Positions 2,502-22,369 of a DNA stretch of 23,895 nucleotides are shown one piece after another. The notes beneath the pieces were generated by a model, which had not been told where the DNA came from, ran no database searches, and worked only from the letters and a program-made list of their open reading frames with translations. The position numbers were made by a program, and so were the translations under genes. The DNA comes from a virus, in the IMG/VR virus record IMGVR_UViG_3300032160_001553, positions 1 through 23,895 of that record; one strand, written 5' to 3'. Every line of letters starts with the position of its first letter. The first letter of the stretch is position 1.

Positions 2502-3116
2502 ATGGCTCCGATTATCCCCGATGACGTTCCGAGTCGCTTCGCGGCCGGGACGACGGTGAAATTCCATCGATCGTTCGACGATTATCTCGCCTCGGACGGA
2601 TGGGCGTACACGTTTTACGCGAACGGCGCCTCGGCCGTTTTCAATCAAGAGGCGACAACGAACGCGGACGGACAATCGTTCGACATCGTCATCCCAGCGA
2701 CGAAGACGAACGTCCCGGCCGGCCGCTATCAATGCGCGGAAGTCTTGACGAACGCGACGACGGGCGAAGTCGTTCATCCGTCCGACGACATGCTCCAACT
2801 GAACATCGAGGCGAACGTCGCGACGGCCGCGGCCGGCTCGTTCGTCTCGCACATTGAGCGAATGCTCACCGTAATCGAAGCGGCTCTCGAAGGGCGATTG
2901 TCGGCCGATCTCATGAGCTATCAAATCGCCGGCCGTGCGGTCGTCAAGATCCCGGCGAAGGATCTTCTCTGGTTTCGCGGTCACTACCGCTCGAAGCTCT
3001 TCCAACTCCAGAACCCCGGACGCCTGGGATCCCCGGTCGTCGTCGCTTTCACGAATGAACCGGAAGAACCAACTTACCCGCCGACGTGGGTCGACGTCAC
3101 AGGTCTCGATCGATGA
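2502..3116 (+). CDS. Neck or head-tail connector candidate with gpW-like C-terminal domain, 204 aa
   Basis: Residues 1-108 look like a beta-rich, Ig-like domain (TTVKFHRSFDDYLASDGWAY, then alternating hydrophobic strands). Residues 115-166 are helical and follow a gpW-like pattern: a helix (IERMLTVIEAALEGR), then SYQIAGRAVVKIP, then a second helix (KDLLWFRGHYRSKL). gpW of lambda closes the filled head and gives the tail a docking surface. Related two-part proteins sit beside the portal in many prophages, as here. The last four bases overlap the portal start (ATGA), suggesting translational coupling. No ribosome site is visible before the ATG. The C-terminal likeness is by pattern only, so the exact neck role is an inference. 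Confidence 0.65.
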   Translation: MAPIIPDDVPSRFAAGTTVKFHRSFDDYLASDGWAYTFYANGASAVFNQEATTNADGQSFDIVIPATKTNVPAGRYQCAEVLTNATTGEVVHPSDDMLQLNIEANVATAAAGSFVSHIERMLTVIEAALEGRLSADLMSYQIAGRAVVKIPAKDLLWFRGHYRSKLFQLQNPGRLGSPVVVAFTNEPEEPTYPPTWVDVTGLDR

Positions 3117-4786
3117 CAAAGCAAACCTCGTGGATCGGCCGCGTCACTCGATCAATCGTTCGCAATCTCGGATTGGCGGTCGGGCTTAGTCTGCGATCGA
3201 ACGCGACGGTCTACTCCGGAGCATCGGGGAGTCGCCTTACGCTCGACTGGATTGCGACGATCCTCTCCGCCGATCAGGAGATCCGCGGGAACCTCCGACT
3301 CTTACGCGCGCGCGGCCGCGAGCTCTCGCGAAACAACCCGATCGCGAAAAACTTTTTGAACTTGCTGATCGCGAACGTCGTCGGACACAAAGGGATCGGA
3401 TATCGTCCCCAGGTCCGAAACAGCGAGGGCAAGTGTCCCTCGTGCGATGGGAAGGGAAAGATCCCCGCGACCGCGGCCGGCGCCGCTGATCAAAAGTGCA
3501 AACCGTGCAACGGCTCGGGGAAGATCAAAGACGTCCTCAGTAAGCCGATCAACGACAAGATCTCCGCGGCGTGGGACGAATGGTGTAAGAAAACAAATTG
3601 CACAGTCGACGGAAGGCTCTCGTTTCGAGGCGTGCAAGAGGTCACCTTGAAAAACACCGCGGCGGATGGTGAAGTCTTCGTCCGCAAAGTCCGCGGGTTC
3701 CCTGGGAACAAGTTCCGATTCGCGCTCCAACTGATCGACGCCGATCAGTGCGATCACTTGTACTCGGTCCCGCCCTCGAAGGACGGAAACGAGATCCGAC
3801 TCGGCGTCGAGGTCGACAAGTGGGGTCGGCCGCTCGCTTATTGGATCAATCCAGGGCATCCGAGCGACCTCGGCGGCTCGCTCTTGCGCGAGCGGATCCC
3901 GGCCGAGGACATCATTCACCTGTACGACATCGAGCGGATCTCGCAGACTCGCGGCGTCACGTGGTTCCATCCGGTCATGCTCCAGCTCCGCATGCTTGAA
4001 GGCTACATCGAGGCCGAGCTCGTCGCGGCTCGAACCGGCGCGGCGAAGATGGGATGGCTCGAATACACGGACGCGTCCGCATACGAGGAACCGAACCCCG
4101 ATCAGAAGCTTGTCTTCGAGGCGAACCCCGGAACGATCGAGACGCTTCCCCCTGGAGTCACGTTCAAAGAGTGGAACCCAGATCACCCGGCGAACGCGTT
4201 TCCGAACTTCGTGATCACGATCCTCCGACAGATCGCGACCGGGCTCGGCGTCTCTTACAACGCGCTCGCCTCCGACCTTGTCGGCGTGAATTACTCCTCG
4301 ATGCGATCTGGACTCCTGATCGAGCGCGATCAGTGGAAACGCGATCAATCCTGGATGATCGAGAACCTTTGCGCTCCCGTCTTCGAAGACTTCCTCGCGT
4401 TCGCTCTGCTTTCGGGCGCCTTAGTTCTCGACTCGAGGGACGACGCGAAGTTCAAGGCCGGCAAGTGGGAACCTCGCGGCTGGCAATGGGTCGACCCGCT
4501 CAAAGACGCGCAAGCGGCGATCCTCTCGATCGGCGCACGGCTCAAGTCGCGCGACTCGATCGTCTCCGAGACGGGCGAGGACATCGAGGAAGTCTTCGAG
4601 CAGATCGCCCAGGAAGAGGCGCTCGCCGAGACGCTCGGTCTCGATCTCACGCTCCCGAGTGCATCGAAACCGCTCGGAGCTCCGGCCGATCAAAGCGTCG
4701 AAGACGACGAGGGCGGAGGATCCTCGGGGACGGCCGGCGACGACGACGAGGGCGACTCAGGCGGCGACGCAAGCGGCAGTAAGTAA
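3113..4786 (+). CDS. Portal protein, lambda family, with inserted zinc knuckle
   Basis: The 557-residue protein forms the dodecameric ring at the head vertex through which DNA enters and leaves. Lambda-family signatures include LSRNNPIAKNFLNLLIANVVG, then AAWDEWCKKTNCTVDGRLSF, then YIEAELVAARTGAAKMGW, and SDLVGVNYSSMRSGLLIERD near residue 410. The start at 3113 (ATGA overlap with the previous stop) gives MTKQTSW; an upstream start at 3086 would add nine Arg-rich residues. Between the conserved GIGYRPQ and the Trp-rich helix lies an extra segment with two CxxCxGxG motifs (Cys 108, 111, 129, 132), as in DnaJ. The C-terminal ~35 residues are a Gly/Asp/Glu-rich disordered tail. The stop begins a TAAGTAAGTAA run that closes all three frames. 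Confidence 0.93.
   Translation: MTKQTSWIGRVTRSIVRNLGLAVGLSLRSNATVYSGASGSRLTLDWIATILSADQEIRGNLRLLRARGRELSRNNPIAKNFLNLLIANVVGHKGIGYRPQVRNSEGKCPSCDGKGKIPATAAGAADQKCKPCNGSGKIKDVLSKPINDKISAAWDEWCKKTNCTVDGRLSFRGVQEVTLKNTAADGEVFVRKVRGFPGNKFRFALQLIDADQCDHLYSVPPSKDGNEIRLGVEVDKWGRPLAYWINPGHPSDLGGSLLRERIPAEDIIHLYDIERISQTRGVTWFHPVMLQLRMLEGYIEAELVAARTGAAKMGWLEYTDASAYEEPNPDQKLVFEANPGTIETLPPGVTFKEWNPDHPANAFPNFVITILRQIATGLGVSYNALASDLVGVNYSSMRSGLLIERDQWKRDQSWMIENLCAPVFEDFLAFALLSGALVLDSRDDAKFKAGKWEPRGWQWVDPLKDAQAAILSIGARLKSRDSIVSETGEDIEEVFEQIAQEEALAETLGLDLTLPSASKPLGAPADQSVEDDEGGGSSGTAGDDDEGDSGGDASGSK
3434..3526 (+). other. DnaJ-like double CxxCxGxG zinc motif inside the portal
   Basis: The encoded motifs are CPSCDGKGKI and CKPCNGSGKI, 21 residues apart (first Cys to first Cys). 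In DnaJ, two such motifs supply the four thiolates for one zinc ion. All four Cys and the spacer glycines are intact, so the site should be able to bind zinc. It sits in a loop between conserved portal segments and does not disturb them. Confidence 0.8.
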
Positions 4787-4820: not shown

Positions 4821-6914
4821 ATGGCGACGACGACGACGACACTCGAGGAGCTTAACAATCGGGTAAGAACTCCGCTCGTGGACGGCGAGTTACTCCCGAT
4901 TCAGACGCGCGAGTTCGAACTCACGGAGTTCGTAAAGCTCCCGAAAAAAGTGAAGCGGACGAAGGAAGACAAGATCGCCGCGAACCTCGCGAGGCGCGCG
5001 AAAAAAGCGGCCGGAGCAACCGGGCCGGACGACGATCCCGAGGAAGAGGACGATCAGGACGACGGCGCCGACGAGGATCGATTCGCGATCGCGATCTCTT
5101 CCGAGTACCCCGTCCGCGGCTGGTTTGGGACGGAGATCCTTGATCACTCGCCGGAGTCGGTCGATCTCTCGAGGGCAAAAAACGGGCTCTCGTTTCTGGA
5201 CTCTCACATCTCGCGCGAGATCATCGGGATCGTGAACGACGTCACGCTCGACAAAAAAGATCGAAAGCTCCGCGGCGTGGTCCAGTTCTCGCGAAACCAG
5301 AAAGCTCAAGACGTGAAGCGCGACGTCCAGGACAAGATCCGGAAGTACATCTCCGTCGGCTATCAGGTCAATGAGTACGTGCTCGAGAAAATGTCGGAGG
5401 ACGAAGGGGACACTTATCGAGCGACGTCCTGGGTCCCGATGGAAGCAAGTTCGGTCGCGGTCCCGGCTGATCCAACAGTCGGGCATAACCGAAACGCGGG
5501 GGAGCGCGGGTTCCCCGTCAAAGTGCGAAGTCTTAATCCTTCGGCCGAGGTCTCGGCCGAACAAACAACGGAGGCAAGAATGGCAACGGAAACGAGCAAT
5601 GCTCAAGCAGTAGTCGATTCCCGCAAGGTCGCGTCCGAGGTCGTCAAACTCGGCAAGCGACACGGGATCGATCAGGAGCGCGTCGCGACGTGGATCTCCG
5701 AGGGGCGGTCGATCGATGCCGTTTCCGCTCTGATCCTCGAAGAAGTCGCATCCCGATCGGCGAAACCAAACACGACCGGAGCGGCCGCGGAACATCGCGA
5801 CGAGATCCAACTCTCCGAGAAAGAACAACGCGAATATAACCTCGCGCGCGGGATCATGACGATCGTCGCGAACGAGGAGTCGGATGAAAGCGGCGGGAAG
5901 CGCGAGAACTCCCTGGAGCTCGAAGTCTCTCAGGCGATCGAGCGAGTGTACACAGGGAAGCGTCACGGCGGACTGTTCGTCCCCTGGAGCGTGAAGAACG
6001 TCAACGCGATCGCGGCGCGCGCGGGTCTCGATTCGAAAACGTCGACGGCGGGCGCCGAGCTCAAATTCACCGAACCGGGCGCGTTCATCGACTTCCTGTA
6101 TAACCGTTTGCGCGTGAAGGAACTCGGCGCGCAAACGATCAGCGGACTTCGCGACAACGTCGCTTATCCGAAACAGACCGGGCGGGCGACCGGATCCTGG
6201 GTCGGAGAAAACCCAGGCGCCGACGTCACCGATTCGGCGCTCACGCTCGGACAGGTCCCGAGCTCGCCGAAGACTTATCAGTCCTCGACGAGCTACTCTC
6301 GCCAGTTACTCGCCCAGGCTGTGATCGATGTCGACACGCTCGTCCGACAGGACCTCGCGCGCGACATGGCTCTCGCGATCGACCTCGCGGCGATCGCTGG
6401 AGCGACCAGCGGAAACAATCCAGTCGGGATCCTCCACACGACGGGCGTCCAGTCATTCGTGCTCGAAGGCGACGCCGGCAACGGCGCCCAACCGGATTAC
6501 GAGGATGTCGTTCACATGATCGAGGAGCTCGAAGATGTGAACGCCGATCAGCTCGGCGATCCGGGATGGCTCACGACTCCGGGAATCAAGTCGCTTTTGA
6601 AACTCACCGCGCGACTCGCGAACACGATCGCTCTTCCGGTGTGGGCGGATAACGACACGGTCTCGGGATACATGGCGCGCTCCTCGAATCAGGTCCCGAG
6701 CACGGCCGTCCGCGGAGACACGTCGAACAATCACGCTTTGATCCTCGGCGTCTTCGCGACGATGGTGATCGGGATGTGGGGGAGCGGATACGAGCTCGTC
6801 GTCGATCCGTATCGCCTCAAGAAACAGGGCATGATCGAATTGACCACGTTCATGCTCACCGACGTCGCCTTGAAGTATCCCCAGGCGTTCGTCGTCGCAC
6901 AGTGTCAGAAGTAA
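4821..6914 (+). CDS. Prohead protease / major capsid protein fusion, 697 aa
   Basis: One open frame encodes two head-maturation functions. Residues 90-220 are an HK97-type prohead serine protease: GLSFLDSH (His129), ISVGY (Ser178) and MEASSVAVPADP, the usual sequence after the catalytic core. Residues 226-390 are a charged linker or scaffold-like (delta) region. From about residue 395 (GGLFVPWSV) to the end is an HK97-fold major capsid protein, with SYSRQLLAQAVIDVDTLVRQ, the loop GNNPVGILHTTGVQ, and the closing DPYRLKKQGMIELTTF. An acidic stretch (residues 68-86) precedes the protease. The ribosome site AGGAG (4808-4812) is 8 bases before the ATG. Fused protease-capsid genes are known; an internal start is described separately. 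Cleavage sites cannot be read from the sequence. Confidence 0.92.
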   Translation: MATTTTTLEELNNRVRTPLVDGELLPIQTREFELTEFVKLPKKVKRTKEDKIAANLARRAKKAAGATGPDDDPEEEDDQDDGADEDRFAIAISSEYPVRGWFGTEILDHSPESVDLSRAKNGLSFLDSHISREIIGIVNDVTLDKKDRKLRGVVQFSRNQKAQDVKRDVQDKIRKYISVGYQVNEYVLEKMSEDEGDTYRATSWVPMEASSVAVPADPTVGHNRNAGERGFPVKVRSLNPSAEVSAEQTTEARMATETSNAQAVVDSRKVASEVVKLGKRHGIDQERVATWISEGRSIDAVSALILEEVASRSAKPNTTGAAAEHRDEIQLSEKEQREYNLARGIMTIVANEESDESGGKRENSLELEVSQAIERVYTGKRHGGLFVPWSVKNVNAIAARAGLDSKTSTAGAELKFTEPGAFIDFLYNRLRVKELGAQTISGLRDNVAYPKQTGRATGSWVGENPGADVTDSALTLGQVPSSPKTYQSSTSYSRQLLAQAVIDVDTLVRQDLARDMALAIDLAAIAGATSGNNPVGILHTTGVQSFVLEGDAGNGAQPDYEDVVHMIEELEDVNADQLGDPGWLTTPGIKSLLKLTARLANTIALPVWADNDTVSGYMARSSNQVPSTAVRGDTSNNHALILGVFATMVIGMWGSGYELVVDPYRLKKQGMIELTTFMLTDVALKYPQAFVVAQCQK
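5570..5582 (+). promoter_or_regulatory. Internal ribosome binding site and start codon
   Basis: GGAGG (5570-5574), five spacer bases, then ATG (5580-5582), in frame inside the protease-capsid fusion. It is one of the best ribosome sites in the window and matches the context before the gene at 1332 (GGAGGCAAC). It lies exactly at the junction between protease and scaffold/capsid parts. Confidence 0.65.
5580..6914 (+). CDS. Internally initiated capsid protein (scaffold region plus major capsid), 444 aa
   Basis: If ribosomes start at the internal ATG (codon 254 of the fusion), the product is a protease-free 444-residue protein beginning MATETSNAQAVVDS. It holds a helical, charged segment of about 140 residues, the size of an HK97 delta/scaffold domain, and then the capsid fold. 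Capsid protein is needed in hundreds of copies and protease in few, so separate, stronger initiation makes sense. Lambda uses a similar nested design for C and Nu3. It may also be a relic of two genes that fused by loss of a stop codon. The sequence supports the start; use in the cell is inferred. Confidence 0.55.
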   Translation: MATETSNAQAVVDSRKVASEVVKLGKRHGIDQERVATWISEGRSIDAVSALILEEVASRSAKPNTTGAAAEHRDEIQLSEKEQREYNLARGIMTIVANEESDESGGKRENSLELEVSQAIERVYTGKRHGGLFVPWSVKNVNAIAARAGLDSKTSTAGAELKFTEPGAFIDFLYNRLRVKELGAQTISGLRDNVAYPKQTGRATGSWVGENPGADVTDSALTLGQVPSSPKTYQSSTSYSRQLLAQAVIDVDTLVRQDLARDMALAIDLAAIAGATSGNNPVGILHTTGVQSFVLEGDAGNGAQPDYEDVVHMIEELEDVNADQLGDPGWLTTPGIKSLLKLTARLANTIALPVWADNDTVSGYMARSSNQVPSTAVRGDTSNNHALILGVFATMVIGMWGSGYELVVDPYRLKKQGMIELTTFMLTDVALKYPQAFVVAQCQK

Positions 6915-7664: not shown

Positions 7665-8378
7665 ATGTCGAAAAAAACAACCGTAGTTTCGCTCGAACTC
7701 CCCGACTTCGGGGAAAACCTCGTGGAAGCGAAAAACCTACAGAAGCTCGACGACGCGATCGCCGCGCTTCAGGGTACAGCGCAAGGAACTTTTCTCGTAA
7801 CAACACCGGCGGCGGATCAAACCGTCGTGCACAAGATCATCTCGGTCGAAGGATTCGAAGGACCGCTCGCTGGAGCTGTGACAGGCAATGTCACCGGCAA
7901 CGTCACAGGGAACCTCACCGGAGCTGTGACAGGCAACGTCACCGGCAATGTCACGGGGAACCTCACCGGAGCTGTGACAGGCAATGTCACCGGCAACGTC
8001 ACGGGGAACCTCACCGGAGCTGTGACGGGCAACGTCACCGGCAATGTGAAGGGGATCATCCAGGAACCAGTCGCGAGCGATGTCGTCGCGAGTGGCGCGA
8101 TCACGGCGAAGCAAGGGCTCGTCGGACTGGGATCAAGCGGAGCTCTCGCGGTTTCACTCGCCGATCCGACGAGCGTGACCGACGACGGGAAAATCCTCCG
8201 GCTCATGGCGACCACGGCTCAACCTCACGTGATCACGGTCACGGGCGGGATCGGCGGCGGATCGAATGACACGGCAACTCTCGGTGGCTCGATCGGGGAC
8301 ATGCTGATCCTCGAAGCGAAGGGCGGAAAGTGGTTCCTCCTCCCCTCGATCAATGCGACGCTGTCGAACTCAAAGTAA
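7665..8378 (+). CDS. Repeat-containing fibre protein, probably head-associated, 237 aa
   Basis: Residues 1-69 are a soluble N-terminal domain with a helix (LVEAKNLQKLDDAIAALQG). Residues 70-135 are four tandem copies of the 16-residue unit GAVTGNVTGNVTGNLT, the last one decaying into GNVKGII. The C-terminal ~100 residues are Gly/Ser/Thr-rich and beta-prone (TTAQPHVITVTGGIGGG, ending LPSINATLSNSK). Such GNxTG arrays are typical of elongated trimeric phage fibres with a beta-helical shaft. Its place between the FII-like neck gene and the tail genes fits a head fibre or collar whisker better than a tail fibre, but that is inferred. It is one of two fibre genes here; the other, near 21000, has a different repeat. 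Confidence 0.7.
   Translation: MSKKTTVVSLELPDFGENLVEAKNLQKLDDAIAALQGTAQGTFLVTTPAADQTVVHKIISVEGFEGPLAGAVTGNVTGNVTGNLTGAVTGNVTGNVTGNLTGAVTGNVTGNVTGNLTGAVTGNVTGNVKGIIQEPVASDVVASGAITAKQGLVGLGSSGALAVSLADPTSVTDDGKILRLMATTAQPHVITVTGGIGGGSNDTATLGGSIGDMLILEAKGGKWFLLPSINATLSNSK
7872..8063 (+). repeat. Four tandem 48-base repeats encoding GAVTGNVTGNVTGNLT
   Basis: The copies start at 7872, 7920, 7968 and 8016. Differences are almost all silent third-base changes (AAT/AAC, ACA/ACG); the fourth copy diverges at its end. Within each unit there is a 12-base sub-repeat (GGC AAY GTC ACN). Copy number is likely to vary by recombination or slippage. Confidence 0.92.
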
Positions 8379-8960: not shown

Positions 8961-9752
8961 ATGCCTGGAATCAAGTATCCGCTCGCTCACGTCCCGATGC
9001 TCGGCAAAGGATCGATTTTGTTCGATCGCTTCGACACTTCGGGAAACCTAACGGGTTATATGCCGTTTGGCAACGCAACCAAACTCGAGCTCGCGCACAA
9101 AGACGAGCGCGCGACCCTGTTCCAATCGCTCAATAAGTCCGCGTCGCTGATCGCGACCGGGCTCAAAAAGCGAACCGTCTCGGTCTCGATCGTCGGGACC
9201 GACTTCCGCTCCGACATGATGGCCGTCGCCATGATGTCCGGCGGGAAGACGACGCTCGCGACTGCGGTCGCGGTCGTCACCGCGGAAGTGCTCGCGCCGG
9301 CCGGCGTCTCGAAAGCGGGGAAGTATTACGCGCTTTTGAATCGGAACGTCGACAACGTCACGACTCCGCCCGTCCTCACGAACAACGCGGTCACGCTCGT
9401 CGCGGGGACCGACTACATCGTCGTCGATCCGATCGAGGGACTGATCTACTTCCCGACGACGACGACCGCGGACTCGGCGCACTCGGTCACGGCGACGTAT
9501 CACACGCTCCTCGGATCCCAGGATCAGGTCGCCGGCGCGACCGAACCCCAGGTCGAGGGGAGACTCCGCTTCGTCCCGGATCCGACCGATGGGCAGAAGA
9601 TCGGGCTCGAGGCGTGGAAAGTGAACCTCTACCCGAGCGGACAGGTCGGTCTAATCGCGGACGATTACGGGAACTGGACGCTCGACGGCGAGGTCCTCGA
9701 CGACACCGCGAACCATCCGCTCTCGCCGTACTATCTACAGACGTTCTATTGA
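8961..9752 (+). CDS. Major tail tube protein, 263 aa
   Basis: Stacked hexamers of such a protein form the hollow tail. Evidence is position (between a tail terminator-like gene and the chaperone pair), size (lambda gpV is 246 residues), and a beta-rich sequence: GYMPFGNATKLELAHKDERA, VSVSIVGTDFRSDMMAVAMM, a Val/Thr-rich segment, and a C-terminal domain with TDGQKIGLEAWKVNLYPSG and LDGEVLDDTANHPLSPYY. The ribosome site GGAGG (8950-8954) with six-base spacing is among the strongest in the window, as expected for an abundant protein. Two hairpins follow the gene. No Ig-like C-terminal domain is obvious. Confidence 0.85.
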   Translation: MPGIKYPLAHVPMLGKGSILFDRFDTSGNLTGYMPFGNATKLELAHKDERATLFQSLNKSASLIATGLKKRTVSVSIVGTDFRSDMMAVAMMSGGKTTLATAVAVVTAEVLAPAGVSKAGKYYALLNRNVDNVTTPPVLTNNAVTLVAGTDYIVVDPIEGLIYFPTTTTADSAHSVTATYHTLLGSQDQVAGATEPQVEGRLRFVPDPTDGQKIGLEAWKVNLYPSGQVGLIADDYGNWTLDGEVLDDTANHPLSPYYLQTFY

Positions 9753-9766
9753 TCTTTGCAAAAGGG

Positions 9767-9834
9767 GGGCGAGCGCGCGAACTTGCTCGCCCTCGACCGA
9801 TGGGGGCGAGTGCGATTTACTCGTCCTCGTCCCC
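9767..9834 (+). promoter_or_regulatory. Two consecutive hairpins after the tail tube gene
   Basis: Hairpin 1: GGGCGAGC (9767-9774) with GCTCGCCC (9785-9792), eight pairs and a 10-base loop. Hairpin 2: GGGGGCGAG (9802-9810) with CTCGTCCCC (9826-9834), nine pairs with one G-U and a 15-base loop. Hairpin 2 ends two bases before the GGAGG of the next gene. Neither has a U tract. Confidence 0.55.
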
Positions 9835-9847
9835 CGGAGGTTCACTT

Positions 9848-10072
9848 GTGAAGATCTCGATCAAACTCGCTCACGAGGTCCAGAATCGGCTCCAGCGCGT
9901 CGTCGGGTTCATCGAAGCGGGCAAGATCGACAAGGCCAAAGAGGAAGCTCTTCGACTCGGCGAATTAGTCAAAGGGCAAACGATTGTTATCGTCGACAAC
10001 TGCGAGGAGTGCGGATTCATGCGCGTGATACTCGAACCAAAACGAGGAAAAGATGAAACTCGACGGACGTGA
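9848..10072 (+). CDS. Small hypothetical protein with CEEC motif, 74 aa
   Basis: The start is GTG at 9848, seven bases after GGAGG (9836-9840); the first codons read KISIKLAHEVQNRLQRVVGF. Two predicted helices (about residues 8-24 and 25-42, the second rich in Lys/Glu) are followed by TIVIVDNCEECGFMRVI and a basic end. The CEEC pair (Cys 52 and 55) is half of a possible metal site. The last 20 bases overlap the chaperone gene, whose ribosome site (GAGGAAAAG) lies inside this gene. I do not recognise the family. Its place before the G chaperone suggests a role in tail assembly, without direct support. Confidence 0.7.
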   Translation: MKISIKLAHEVQNRLQRVVGFIEAGKIDKAKEEALRLGELVKGQTIVIVDNCEECGFMRVILEPKRGKDETRRT

Positions 10073-18074: not shown

Positions 18075-20840
18075 ATGTTCATTCTGCTCATGCTGGTCGT
18101 CGCTCTCGCCGCGACCGTTGTCGCCTCGATTCTCCTCGCTCCGAAAACCCAACCTCCGGCGCCCTCGGCGCTCGGAGACTTCACTTTCCCGACCGCCGAC
18201 GAAGGACGCGCCGTCCCGATCATCGGAGGGACCGTCAAGATCTCCGGCGGGGATGTCGTTTGGTGGGGAGATCTTCAAGTCGCGCCGATCAAAGTGAAGG
18301 TTAAGTCCGGGCTCTTCTCGTCGACGACCGAGACCACGGGTTACCGCTATTCGATCGGCTGCCAGTATGCCCTCTGTCAAGGTCCGATCGATGCGCTCGT
18401 CGGGATGGAATCGAACAATAAGATCGTCCCGTACGGCGCCAGCGTCGGACCCGACGTGATCGAGGTCGACGTGAACTCTCCGAAACTGTTCGGCGGCGAC
18501 ACGTCCGAGGGCGGGCTCGCCGGGACGATCATGCTTTACAAGGGGACGAAAACCCAGGGGCCGAACGCGTACCTCTCGGCGAAGCAAACCGCGGCGGGGA
18601 CCGCGGGCAGTCTCGTCCCGTACTCCGGAGTCGGAAACGGCGGGCTCTCGTTTCTTGCTCCCGGACCGAACTCGATCGCGGAGACGATCACGATCACGTC
18701 GCTCGGGACCGTCTACACGGCCGACTCGACGAAGCCGTACTATCTCGCGGCGCAGTTCTCAGTCGTCGGATCCGTCTCGGGTCCGATCGGGACGGCGTAC
18801 GCGGATTACTCGTTCGGATCCTCGAAAATCAACTTCACGATCACGACGGGCTCGATCCCTTTTTCCCCTGGGGATCGCTGGACGGTGACGACGCTCGCGA
18901 CGCGCGTCGCGCCGAGTTACAAAGGGCTCTGTTACGCCGTGCTCCAGGCGTTCTACATGGGCACGTCGAATTACATCAAGCCGATCGACTTCGTCGTGAG
19001 CAAGTTCCCGGACCCGCTCGGCATGGGTTCGAGCTTCTCGAACCTGAACGGCGATTGCAACGCCGCGCTTTTTATCTATCTCGTGCTCACCGATGTCGAT
19101 TCGGGATTAGGGATCCCGACCTCGAGAATGGACGACGACTCGTTCCGCACGGCCGCGACGACGCTCAAAACCGAAGGGCTCGGGGTCTCGCTGATGATCG
19201 ATCAGCAGGCGACGGCCGATAACCTGATCAATGACGTCCTCCGTCACGTTGATGGAGTGCTCTACGTCGACCCGACGACGAACCTGTTCACACTCAAGCT
19301 CGCGCGCGCCGATTACGATCCCTCGACGATCCCCGAGATCACGGTCGATGACGTCCAGGCAACGCCGGACTTCTCTCGCGCGTCCTGGACGCAAACGTAT
19401 AACCAAATCATCGTGAAGTACCTCGACAAGACTCAGGACTTCAATACTCGGTCGGTCCAAGTCCAGGATCCGGGAAACATCGCGATCACCGGCGAAGTGC
19501 GGACACAAACGGTCGAATATAACTCGCTTTCGAACGCGACGACGGCGATGCTCGTCGCGATGCGAGTCCTCCGCGCGATCGCCTATCCTCTCGGGAAGCT
19601 CACGATCACGATCAACCGCAAGGGATGGAACTGGAGACAGGGCGGAGTTTTCAAATTCACCTGGGTCCCGCTCGGGATCTCGAATCAGGTTTTCCGGATC
19701 GCAAAGATCAGTTACGGGGAAGTGATCGACGGGAAGATCACGATCGACGCGATCGAGGACGTGTTTGGATTGAACCTCACCGCGTTCGATCCTCCGCCCC
19801 CGTCCGGATGGGTGAACCCGACCTCGGCTCCGCTCGCTCCCTTGTTTCAGAAACTCGAGGAAGTCCCCTATGCATTCGAGTCGCTCGGGATTTTCGTCCT
19901 CGCAATGGCGGCGCGCGCGGATACGACCTCGACAAGCGACGATGTCTATCAGGACGTGAGCGGGTCGGACACTCTCACGAACACGATCGCGGCGTTCGCT
20001 CCGGTCGGGTTACTCTCCGGGGCGTATCCCGCGGCGACGCCGGCGAACGACTCGACCGGCTTCACGCTACAGGTCAACGGCGCCGATCTGAACACGCTGA
20101 TCGCAACCGACGCCGGCGGACTCTTCCTCGGGAAAAATCTCTTGCTGATCGATGAGGAGTGGATGTCCTGGGAATCGTTCACGGTCAACCTCGACGGGAC
20201 GATCACGATCTCCGGGATCCTTCGCGGCGTCTTCGACACGGTCCCGGCCGATCACGCGAGCGGCGCGAAGGTCTGGTTTTTCTCGCAAGGCTCCGGCGAG
20301 ACTCAGCTCGCCGCGTATCCGGCCGATCTCACTGTCCAGGCGAAGCTCCTACCGATCAACAGTTCGGGCGAGTATCCGCTCTCGAGCGCGACTTATATCA
20401 CGCTCACGACGCGCTCGAGGTACGCGCGACCGTATCCCCCTGGAAACTTGCTATTCGCGGGGCAGTCCTATGGCGTCCGCTTCTCGACGACGCTCGGCGA
20501 CGTCACGTTCACATGGCGCGCGCGCAACCGGATCACGCAAACCGCGGCCGGCGTACTTACTAAGCAAGATGCCGGCGACGTTGCGGCCGAGGCGGGGACG
20601 ACTTACAAGGTCGCGATCTCGATCGGCGGAACTTACATTCGCACGGTGAGCGCGATCGCGGTCGAAACCTTCACTTATCACGCGGCGGATCGCGTGTCGG
20701 ACGGCGGAGTCGGATCGGTCACGCTCGCTTTCTACTCGAACGCGAACTCGCTCGATTCCTATCAGGCGCAACAAGTCACGTTCGAGATGACCGGCTTCGG
20801 TCTCGACTTTGGGCGCATTTTCGGAGGTCAACAATCATGA
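18075..20840 (+). CDS. Central tail tip / hub protein, J-like (Phage-tail_3 type), 921 aa
   Basis: This is the longest gene of the window. Residues 1-22 are a hydrophobic segment (FILLMLVVALAATVVASILL) seen in related hub proteins, possibly for membrane contact. GRAVPIIGGTVKISGGDVVWWG (residues 45-66) is the conserved opening of this group. Residues 170-280 are an inserted module related to that in the gene at 13351. Conserved hub sequence resumes with YKGLCYAVLQAFYMG and continues through NLINDVLRHVDGVLYVD and YNQIIVKYLD. The C-terminal part (from ~620) is beta-rich with GxILRGVFDT, probably exposed receptor-side domains. Such proteins close the tube and carry fibres. The stop overlaps the fibre gene start (ATGA). 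Assignment is good; domain borders are approximate. Confidence 0.88.
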   Translation: MFILLMLVVALAATVVASILLAPKTQPPAPSALGDFTFPTADEGRAVPIIGGTVKISGGDVVWWGDLQVAPIKVKVKSGLFSSTTETTGYRYSIGCQYALCQGPIDALVGMESNNKIVPYGASVGPDVIEVDVNSPKLFGGDTSEGGLAGTIMLYKGTKTQGPNAYLSAKQTAAGTAGSLVPYSGVGNGGLSFLAPGPNSIAETITITSLGTVYTADSTKPYYLAAQFSVVGSVSGPIGTAYADYSFGSSKINFTITTGSIPFSPGDRWTVTTLATRVAPSYKGLCYAVLQAFYMGTSNYIKPIDFVVSKFPDPLGMGSSFSNLNGDCNAALFIYLVLTDVDSGLGIPTSRMDDDSFRTAATTLKTEGLGVSLMIDQQATADNLINDVLRHVDGVLYVDPTTNLFTLKLARADYDPSTIPEITVDDVQATPDFSRASWTQTYNQIIVKYLDKTQDFNTRSVQVQDPGNIAITGEVRTQTVEYNSLSNATTAMLVAMRVLRAIAYPLGKLTITINRKGWNWRQGGVFKFTWVPLGISNQVFRIAKISYGEVIDGKITIDAIEDVFGLNLTAFDPPPPSGWVNPTSAPLAPLFQKLEEVPYAFESLGIFVLAMAARADTTSTSDDVYQDVSGSDTLTNTIAAFAPVGLLSGAYPAATPANDSTGFTLQVNGADLNTLIATDAGGLFLGKNLLLIDEEWMSWESFTVNLDGTITISGILRGVFDTVPADHASGAKVWFFSQGSGETQLAAYPADLTVQAKLLPINSSGEYPLSSATYITLTTRSRYARPYPPGNLLFAGQSYGVRFSTTLGDVTFTWRARNRITQTAAGVLTKQDAGDVAAEAGTTYKVAISIGGTYIRTVSAIAVETFTYHAADRVSDGGVGSVTLAFYSNANSLDSYQAQQVTFEMTGFGLDFGRIFGGQQS

Positions 20841-22369
20841 GTACATCGACAGGTCCTCGCCGCGGGTTACTGATCAACGCGCTCACGGGCGACAATTTCG
20901 ACGTTACCTTCCGCGCGTTTCTTCGCGCGATCGACGCGCTTCTCTCGGCCGCGGTCATCAACCTCACGACCTCCGCTCCCCCAGGCTCGCCGGCAAATGG
21001 CGACGCGTACATCGTCAAGGCATCCGGGACGGGCGCCTGGACGGGACACGACAACGCGCTCGCGATCTGGACGACCGACAACCCCGCGACCCCTGGGGGA
21101 CTGTGGGAGTTCTATCCCGCGGCGTCCGGGATGATCGTCGTCAACCTCGCCGACTCGTTGCTTTATTACTGGAAGAGTTCGGCGTCGGCATGGACCGCGA
21201 TCGGCTTAGGAGCGGTGACGAGCGTCGCGGGAAGAACGGGCGCGGTCGTCCTGGGAGAAAGTGATATCACGAGTCTCACGACCGACCTCGCCGCGAAAGC
21301 GACCGCATCCGCACTCTCCGCGGAAGTATCGCGGGCCGAGGCCGCGGAAGCTCTCCTCGCTCCGCTCGCGTCGCCGGCGCTCACTGGCAACCCGACCGCT
21401 CCGACTCAGACGGCGCACGATAACTCGACGAGAATCGCGACGACCGCTTACACGGACGGCGCGGTCGCCGCGGGCATCGGAGGGATCGGCGGCGGATCCT
21501 CGACACTCGCGGGCGACACGGACGTTTCAATCAGCTCGCCGGCGAACAATGACGTGCTCACATACGAGACGTCGTCGACGAAGTGGAAGAACAAACCGGC
21601 GGGCGGCGCGGTGACGAGCGTCGCGGGAAGAACGGGCGCGGTCGTCCTGGGAGAAAGTGATATCACGAGTCTCACGACCGACCTCGCCGCGAAAGCGACG
21701 CTTGCGTCGCCGGCGCTCACTGGCAACCCGACCGCTCCAACTCAGACGGCGCTCGACAACTCGACGAAGATTGCAACGACCGCTTACACGGACGGCGCGG
21801 TCGCGGCGGCGGCTGGCGGGGGCGGACTCCCGGCCGGGACTCTCATCACGGTTGGCGTACGCGGCACGGGTTCGGGCGGGGCGGGTTGGAACAACTACAC
21901 GCTGATAACGGCTATTCTCGGCGAACAAGTCATCAACCCGGTTTCGAAAGTGCAGGCTCGAATATGCGTGATCGGCGGCGCCGGTATGCATCTTCAGGGG
22001 TTCATCATTTCAACGAACCGGGGGAGCACAACCGTCGTATCGAAGACGGCGATCACTTGGGCCGGAGGGAACTCCTCGTACGTCGCGACTTTCAGCGGGG
22101 CGAGCGCGACCAATCCGTTCTATCTCGACTCGGACGCGATCACGGTCACGATCGATAAGGAGCATGACTGGTACGTCTATATCTATCTCGACACGGACGG
22201 CGGCGGCTACAATGCCGGCGTCGTCCCCTGGGGATCCAGTACGACCAATCTCGCGCTTTGCATGCTCTTTACGCATGGCGCGGGAAACACGATCCCGAAC
22301 GTCGGCGGGACGGTCGCGACCGGATTCTCTACAACGAACCCGTTCGTCGTCGCTCTACTTTCGGCGTAA
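20837..22369 (+). CDS. Tail fibre protein with DUF2793 domain and internal duplication, 510 aa
   Basis: After a short N-terminus, residues 40-122 match the DUF2793 pattern: VINLTTSAPPGSPANGDAYI, GTGAWTGHDNALAIW, then LWEFYPAASGMIVV and YYWKSSASAW. The shaft has two copies of AVTSVAGRTGAVVLGESDIT and two of LTGNPTAPTQTA plus IATTAYTDGAVAA, both common in phage fibres; a helical heptad-like piece (SALSAEVSRAEAAEALL) is present only in the first. The C-terminal ~170 residues, from GLPAGTLITVGVRG, have a less repetitive, aromatic beta-type sequence and are probably the receptor-binding tip. GGAGGTCAAC before the ATG is a good ribosome site. Host specificity likely resides in the C-terminus, by analogy with other fibres. 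Confidence 0.88.
   Translation: MSTSTGPRRGLLINALTGDNFDVTFRAFLRAIDALLSAAVINLTTSAPPGSPANGDAYIVKASGTGAWTGHDNALAIWTTDNPATPGGLWEFYPAASGMIVVNLADSLLYYWKSSASAWTAIGLGAVTSVAGRTGAVVLGESDITSLTTDLAAKATASALSAEVSRAEAAEALLAPLASPALTGNPTAPTQTAHDNSTRIATTAYTDGAVAAGIGGIGGGSSTLAGDTDVSISSPANNDVLTYETSSTKWKNKPAGGAVTSVAGRTGAVVLGESDITSLTTDLAAKATLASPALTGNPTAPTQTALDNSTKIATTAYTDGAVAAAAGGGGLPAGTLITVGVRGTGSGGAGWNNYTLITAILGEQVINPVSKVQARICVIGGAGMHLQGFIISTNRGSTTVVSKTAITWAGGNSSYVATFSGASATNPFYLDSDAITVTIDKEHDWYVYIYLDTDGGGYNAGVVPWGSSTTNLALCMLFTHGAGNTIPNVGGTVATGFSTTNPFVVALLSA
21212..21699 (+). repeat. 92-base identical direct repeat in the fibre gene (21212-21303 and 21608-21699)
   Basis: The two copies, 396 bases apart and in the same frame, are identical over 92 bases including silent positions. 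This implies a recent duplication or ongoing gene conversion, since protein selection alone would not keep synonymous sites equal. Confidence 0.93.
21368..21804 (+). repeat. 101-base near-identical repeat in the fibre gene (21368-21468 and 21704-21804)
   Basis: I count seven differences over 101 bases; the copies are 336 bases apart. The offset differs from that of the 92-base repeat because the first unit has an extra ~60-base helical piece between the two blocks. Confidence 0.9.

Follow-up and report, generated by a model that had tools for sequence, protein, structure and literature searches.

Portals and phage zinc knuckles

The portals of the lambda family, among them that of roseophage R4C (8gtd) and lambda gpB, are the closest described counterparts of the protein considered here, which shares with them its fold, its sequence and its place in the head gene order. 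In R4C a loop of the wing domain, residues 99–108, reaches layered genomic DNA via R100 and K105 (PMC10276861). Where our portal carries an inserted segment R4C has this DNA-contacting loop; in both R4C and lambda the loop is short and free of CxxC pairs.

The inserted segment finds its likeness elsewhere, in the central domain of DnaJ (PF00684, 1exk), with which it shares CxxCxGxG motifs and predicted knuckle turns. DnaJ, however, has four such motifs, two zinc ions and a J domain, whereas the insert has two motifs and lies inside a portal. DnaJ-type knuckles inside phage proteins are already known. The DNA polymerase of HMO-2011-type phages has a partial DnaJ domain (PMC9038755) and resembles our portal in that two CXXCXGXG motifs sit inside an essential phage protein; there the knuckle falls between exonuclease and polymerase domains and belongs to replication, whereas here it belongs to head assembly. 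A DnaJ-type knuckle is also contained in Loki gp45, which is similar to lambda Q (PMC5313236), and in a protein of phage Riggi (PMC3853051). Q-like antiterminators (phrog_6060, phrog_127) share a four-Cys knuckle with the insert but are free-standing regulators. CxxCxGxG turns like those of the insert also occur in anti-TRAP and in the zinc insertion of UvrA (9ga5, DNA-bound), both of which match the insert weakly in structure or sequence, although the proteins that house these turns, and their functions, are unrelated to the portal. In the Xanthomonas phage XapPhi6 (L174, 1953–2423) a 'hypothetical protein' encoded in the small-terminase position, just upstream of the large terminase, has a knuckle of like kind, CPTCKGLG...CPSCGGVG, and knuckles of this sort may have entered packaging proteins on more than one occasion. 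The portal location is, apparently, new.

The window – the whole stretch of 23,895 nucleotides that was analysed, from an IMG/VR virus record – places the portal gene (3113–4786, plus strand; 557 aa) between two other head genes on the same strand: a head-tail joining (connector) protein upstream (2502–3116; phrog_5774, E=2.4e-19) and a prohead protease/major capsid fusion protein (4821–6914; PF05065 and PF04586), which resembles NF045541 but scores under its cut-off. The portal itself is an ordinary member of the lambda family. In profile searches PF05136 matches residues 41–412 (E=9e-96, over the cut-off) and TIGR01539 the protein as a whole (E=3e-108, 362 bits against a cut-off of 173), phrog_21 is matched as well, and the best Foldseek match of the whole-portal model is R4C 8gtd (E=3e-23), followed by lambda 8xow and 8k38. 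ORF translation, profiles and alignment thus bear out what the sequence-only reading had described: two CxxCxGxG motifs inside a lambda-family portal, with conserved blocks around them.

Some further features of the window deserve mention. The interval from the terminase to the head-tail joining gene holds two small ORFs (1332–2195; 83 and 181 aa) that match no PHROG and lack relatives in all seven of the related contigs used for comparison. Between the head genes and the tail terminator an ORF at 7665–8378 encodes a tail-fibre-like protein that may be a head fibre or a decoration protein, and includes a 48-base tandem repeat (7872–8084) encoding GNVTGNVTGNLTGAVT. At 20837–22369 lies a 510-aa tail-end protein with an internal duplication, in which AGRTGAVVLGESDITSLTTDLAAKA is present twice.

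The insert and its two motifs

Alignment places the insert at K107–V141 (3431–3535, plus strand), about 35 residues flanked on both sides by conserved portal sequence; the place proposed from sequence alone was right, while the span proves slightly longer than the 3434–3526 first given. It comprises, in order along the same strand, a first motif CPSCDGKG (aa 108–115; 3434–3457), a variable spacer (3458–3496) that is 13 aa here and up to 36 aa in relatives and is made mostly of Ala, Pro, Gly, Lys and Thr, a second motif CKPCNGSG (aa 129–136; 3497–3520), and a short basic tail, KIKDV (3521–3535), which in the alignment of relatives leads back into a portal helix. The insert is cleanly missing from three sister portals (L010, L011 and L016) that are 78–84% identical overall: in these VRNND(G) runs directly into the next helix, and in the window the sequence reads VRNSEG, then K107 to V141, then LSKPIN. 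That the segment is an insertion, as had been proposed, is therefore borne out.

Chance can be discounted as the origin of the motif pair, both by shuffling and by conservation in 11 divergent relatives: among 200,000 shuffles of the portal at least one motif appeared in 0.09% and two motifs in none. A six-frame scan of the window gives just one further match, a single motif read from the complementary strand at this same site; we regard it as incidental to the sequence of the coding strand.

The pattern of conservation is telling. The four cysteines are invariant in the 11 distinct sequences – both in the first motif and both in the second – although both TGC and TGT are used as their codons. 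Of the four glycines in the motifs three, including those of the second motif, are likewise invariant, and the remaining one is replaced, by Ala, in L012 only. Ratios of pN/pS are 0.21 for the motifs, 0.15–0.23 for the portal body, 0.76 for the spacer and 0.55 for the loose C-terminus; the motifs evolve at about the pace of the portal core and the spacer, from 13 to 36 residues long, is nearly free. A conserved motif combined with a free spacer is the pattern expected of a metal site joined to an unconstrained loop and not of a neutral passenger. It might still be supposed that the knuckle was captured from another zinc protein and is merely tolerated as a neutral hitch-hiker in a permissive loop, and its patchy presence on the tree and freely varying spacer would suit such an origin. 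A neutral passenger, however, would lose its cysteines, and the motif residues keep to the slow pace of the portal core, against 0.43–0.74 differences per synonymous site; the codon test thus disfavours this explanation and we consider it very improbable.

What kind of element the motifs define was approached through models and profiles. Confidence is low within the insert in the model of the whole portal. A fragment model made from the 11 insert-bearing sequences, with a mean pLDDT of 65, shows each CxxCxGxG turn immediately flanked on both sides by isolated beta bridges. Every one of its seven PDB matches by Foldseek is to a DnaJ zinc domain, UvrA2 or BSD2, but none is significant individually (E from 1.7 to 5.6), so that they serve as no more than a pointer. 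When the insert was searched as a profile, E. coli DnaJ 1exk was recovered at E=1.6e-5. All 11 inserts match the zinc profiles of the DnaJ central domain, anti-TRAP and RNase E/G, those of the window falling below the curated cut-offs: PF00684 scores 21 bits in the portal and 22.7 in the fragment against a gathering threshold of 32.7, and anti-TRAP PF15777 scores 23.1 against 32. All 11 also match the Q-like antiterminator phrog_6060 (best E 2.4e-6), a match made by the insert alone: the whole portal has no Q match, nothing beyond the knuckle resembles Q, and the rest of Q is missing from the portal. The paired motifs assign the insert to the CxxCxGxG knuckle class, which is a motif class and not a homologous family. 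Since the matches reach several families and, in the window, fall below the curated cut-offs, we name the segment a CxxCxGxG zinc knuckle and not a DnaJ domain. It is probably a structural zinc knuckle whose four cysteines are predicted to hold one zinc ion, and the DnaJ-type character first suggested for this putative zinc site is supported by the paired motifs and by the matches to DnaJ zinc profiles.

The likeness to DnaJ had also led to the suggestion that the insert recruits the host DnaK/DnaJ system; a variant of this idea makes the insert itself a chaperone of DnaJ type during head assembly. The profile match to the DnaJ central domain is what speaks for it, but the score, about 22 bits, is well short of the Pfam gathering threshold of 32.7, and the anti-TRAP and Q-like matches are equally good. 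DnaJ requires its J domain to act on DnaK. A profile search detected no such domain in the portal, the insert has two motifs where DnaJ has four, and close relatives dispense with the insert altogether. We find a chaperone role scarcely credible.

Position in the portal wing and the likely partner

A central issue is where the insert projects. In an alignment of many insert-less portals with R4C and lambda, with which pairwise PDB alignment agrees, R102 of the window portal falls on R4C R100, G106 on R4C G104 and L142 on R4C K106, a mapping that rests on about 30% identity. The alignment of G106 and L142 puts the insert inside the wing loop 99–108, where it would lengthen the DNA-contacting loop within the head; that this loop contacts DNA is known solely from R4C. 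Every insert carries a net charge of +1 to +7 and the remainder of each portal −11 to −20, although the positive charge is a weak sign, given that a per-portal windows test places it only in the top 2–21% and that the spacers of L012, L013 and L161 are, taken alone, neutral or acidic.

Position in the wing and not in the clip makes contact with the terminase, a partner that the sequence-only reading had entertained, unlikely. The alignment with the DNA-contacting loop of R4C, together with the net positive charge, instead makes packaged DNA – absent from the candidates first put forward – the leading one. We propose, with a probability of roughly one half, that the insert is a zinc knuckle on a flexible stalk, extending a lumen-facing loop and making an accessory contact with packaged DNA. 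On this proposal the four cysteines of the two CxxCxGxG turns would hold one zinc ion; twelve copies would form a ring of positive mini-domains on flexible stalks around the portal, in the head interior; and the ring would touch the final layers of packaged DNA and might help to anchor or arrange them. The knuckle would then be an accessory part and not a chaperone.

Contact with scaffold is a possible alternative and the main rival to DNA contact. The knuckle could be where, in the prohead, the scaffold region of the protease/capsid fusion docks, and could so aid the incorporation of a single portal ring at one vertex. Scaffold touches the portal wing in HK97 (PMC10275583) and in P22 (PMC12005531), and it is to the wing that the insert maps; the HK97 contacts, however, lie in the groove between wings and not on a lumen loop. 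Nor do the capsid genes bear signs of such a partnership. In the scaffold-like middle of the fusion the insert-less L010, at 81% and 78%, is no more distant from the window than are insert-bearing relatives, at 49–80%; phages with and without the insert do not form separate groups in the capsid tree, and no link of the scaffold region with the insert was seen. Docking of scaffold appears doubtful.

Another alternative is that the knuckle lacks a separate partner and serves only to stiffen the portal ring or to staple it, inside a subunit or from one subunit to another. Knuckles of this type act as structural zinc sites, and strong selection on Cys and Gly beside a nearly free spacer fits a staple; but the range in spacer length, 13 to 36 residues, and the low confidence of the model point to an element that is mobile and exposed, and sister portals manage without it. 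We judge this unlikely, and retain DNA contact by a stalked zinc knuckle as the preferred reading.

Distribution, history and significance

Six IMG/VR scans and one scan of GTDB genomes supplied the relatives, in all 271 portal sequences, which a k-mer rule reduced to 164 non-redundant ones. Among the relatives a portal of 61% identity from a Terriglobia genome (L095) hints that the host belongs to the Acidobacteriota. The knuckle is present in 11 of these 164 (IMG/VR), all of one clade, and in none of the approximately 150 other non-redundant lambda-family portals surveyed. When the insert and its flanks were searched against named phages by tblastn, portals were matched through the flanks; the insert matches opened or named among the 49 records belong to a protein upstream of the large terminase, to UvrA and to DnaJ. 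Xanthomonas phage and human-gut matches to the insert, considered as portals, are in fact the protein upstream of the large terminase and UvrA. A common portal feature can thus be ruled out, with the knuckle confined to one clade among 164 and found in none of the portal matches listed for named phages. We found no description of a zinc knuckle in any portal in the open-access literature, outside which many subscription papers lie. The supposition that the insert is unusual for portals stands, and the insert is real and under selection, an apparently undescribed add-on of a small family of uncultured phages.

The history of the insert admits several routes. In a portal tree built without the insert columns the insert-bearing portals form two groups, separated by L010 and L011/L016, which lack the insert (moderate bootstrap values of 84 and 90); in the capsid tree L011/L016 stand beside the insert-bearing L012/L013/L161 group (88). 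An old gain followed by at least two losses, two gains, and exchange between phages all fit. Portals of the group as a whole can dispense with the insert and, since close relatives lack it, packaging does not in general depend on it.

We considered whether an accessory gene accompanies the insert and rejected the idea: in the related contigs head and tail genes are largely alike with and without it. A small ORF with CEEC (9740–10072) was found in three of the contigs with the insert and in neither of those without it, cases too few to count. No other two-motif ORF, and hence no second knuckle protein, was found in the 11 related-contig stretches searched.

Portals are thought to sense the fullness of the head and to hold the DNA in. 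A tentative extension of the preferred reading – possible, yet less probable than DNA contact as such – is that the ring of zinc knuckles is a module, gained or lost, that grips DNA and tunes the end of packaging or the retention of DNA: a metal-dependent anchor. The portal in any case joins the phage proteins in which knuckles occur, namely a polymerase, Q-like regulators and a protein in the small-terminase position. To our knowledge, the manner in which the wing loop contacts packaged DNA is poorly known. An insert in the loop that corresponds to the DNA-contacting loop of R4C, together with insert-less sisters 78–84% identical, provides a ready-made pair for probing the role of that loop.
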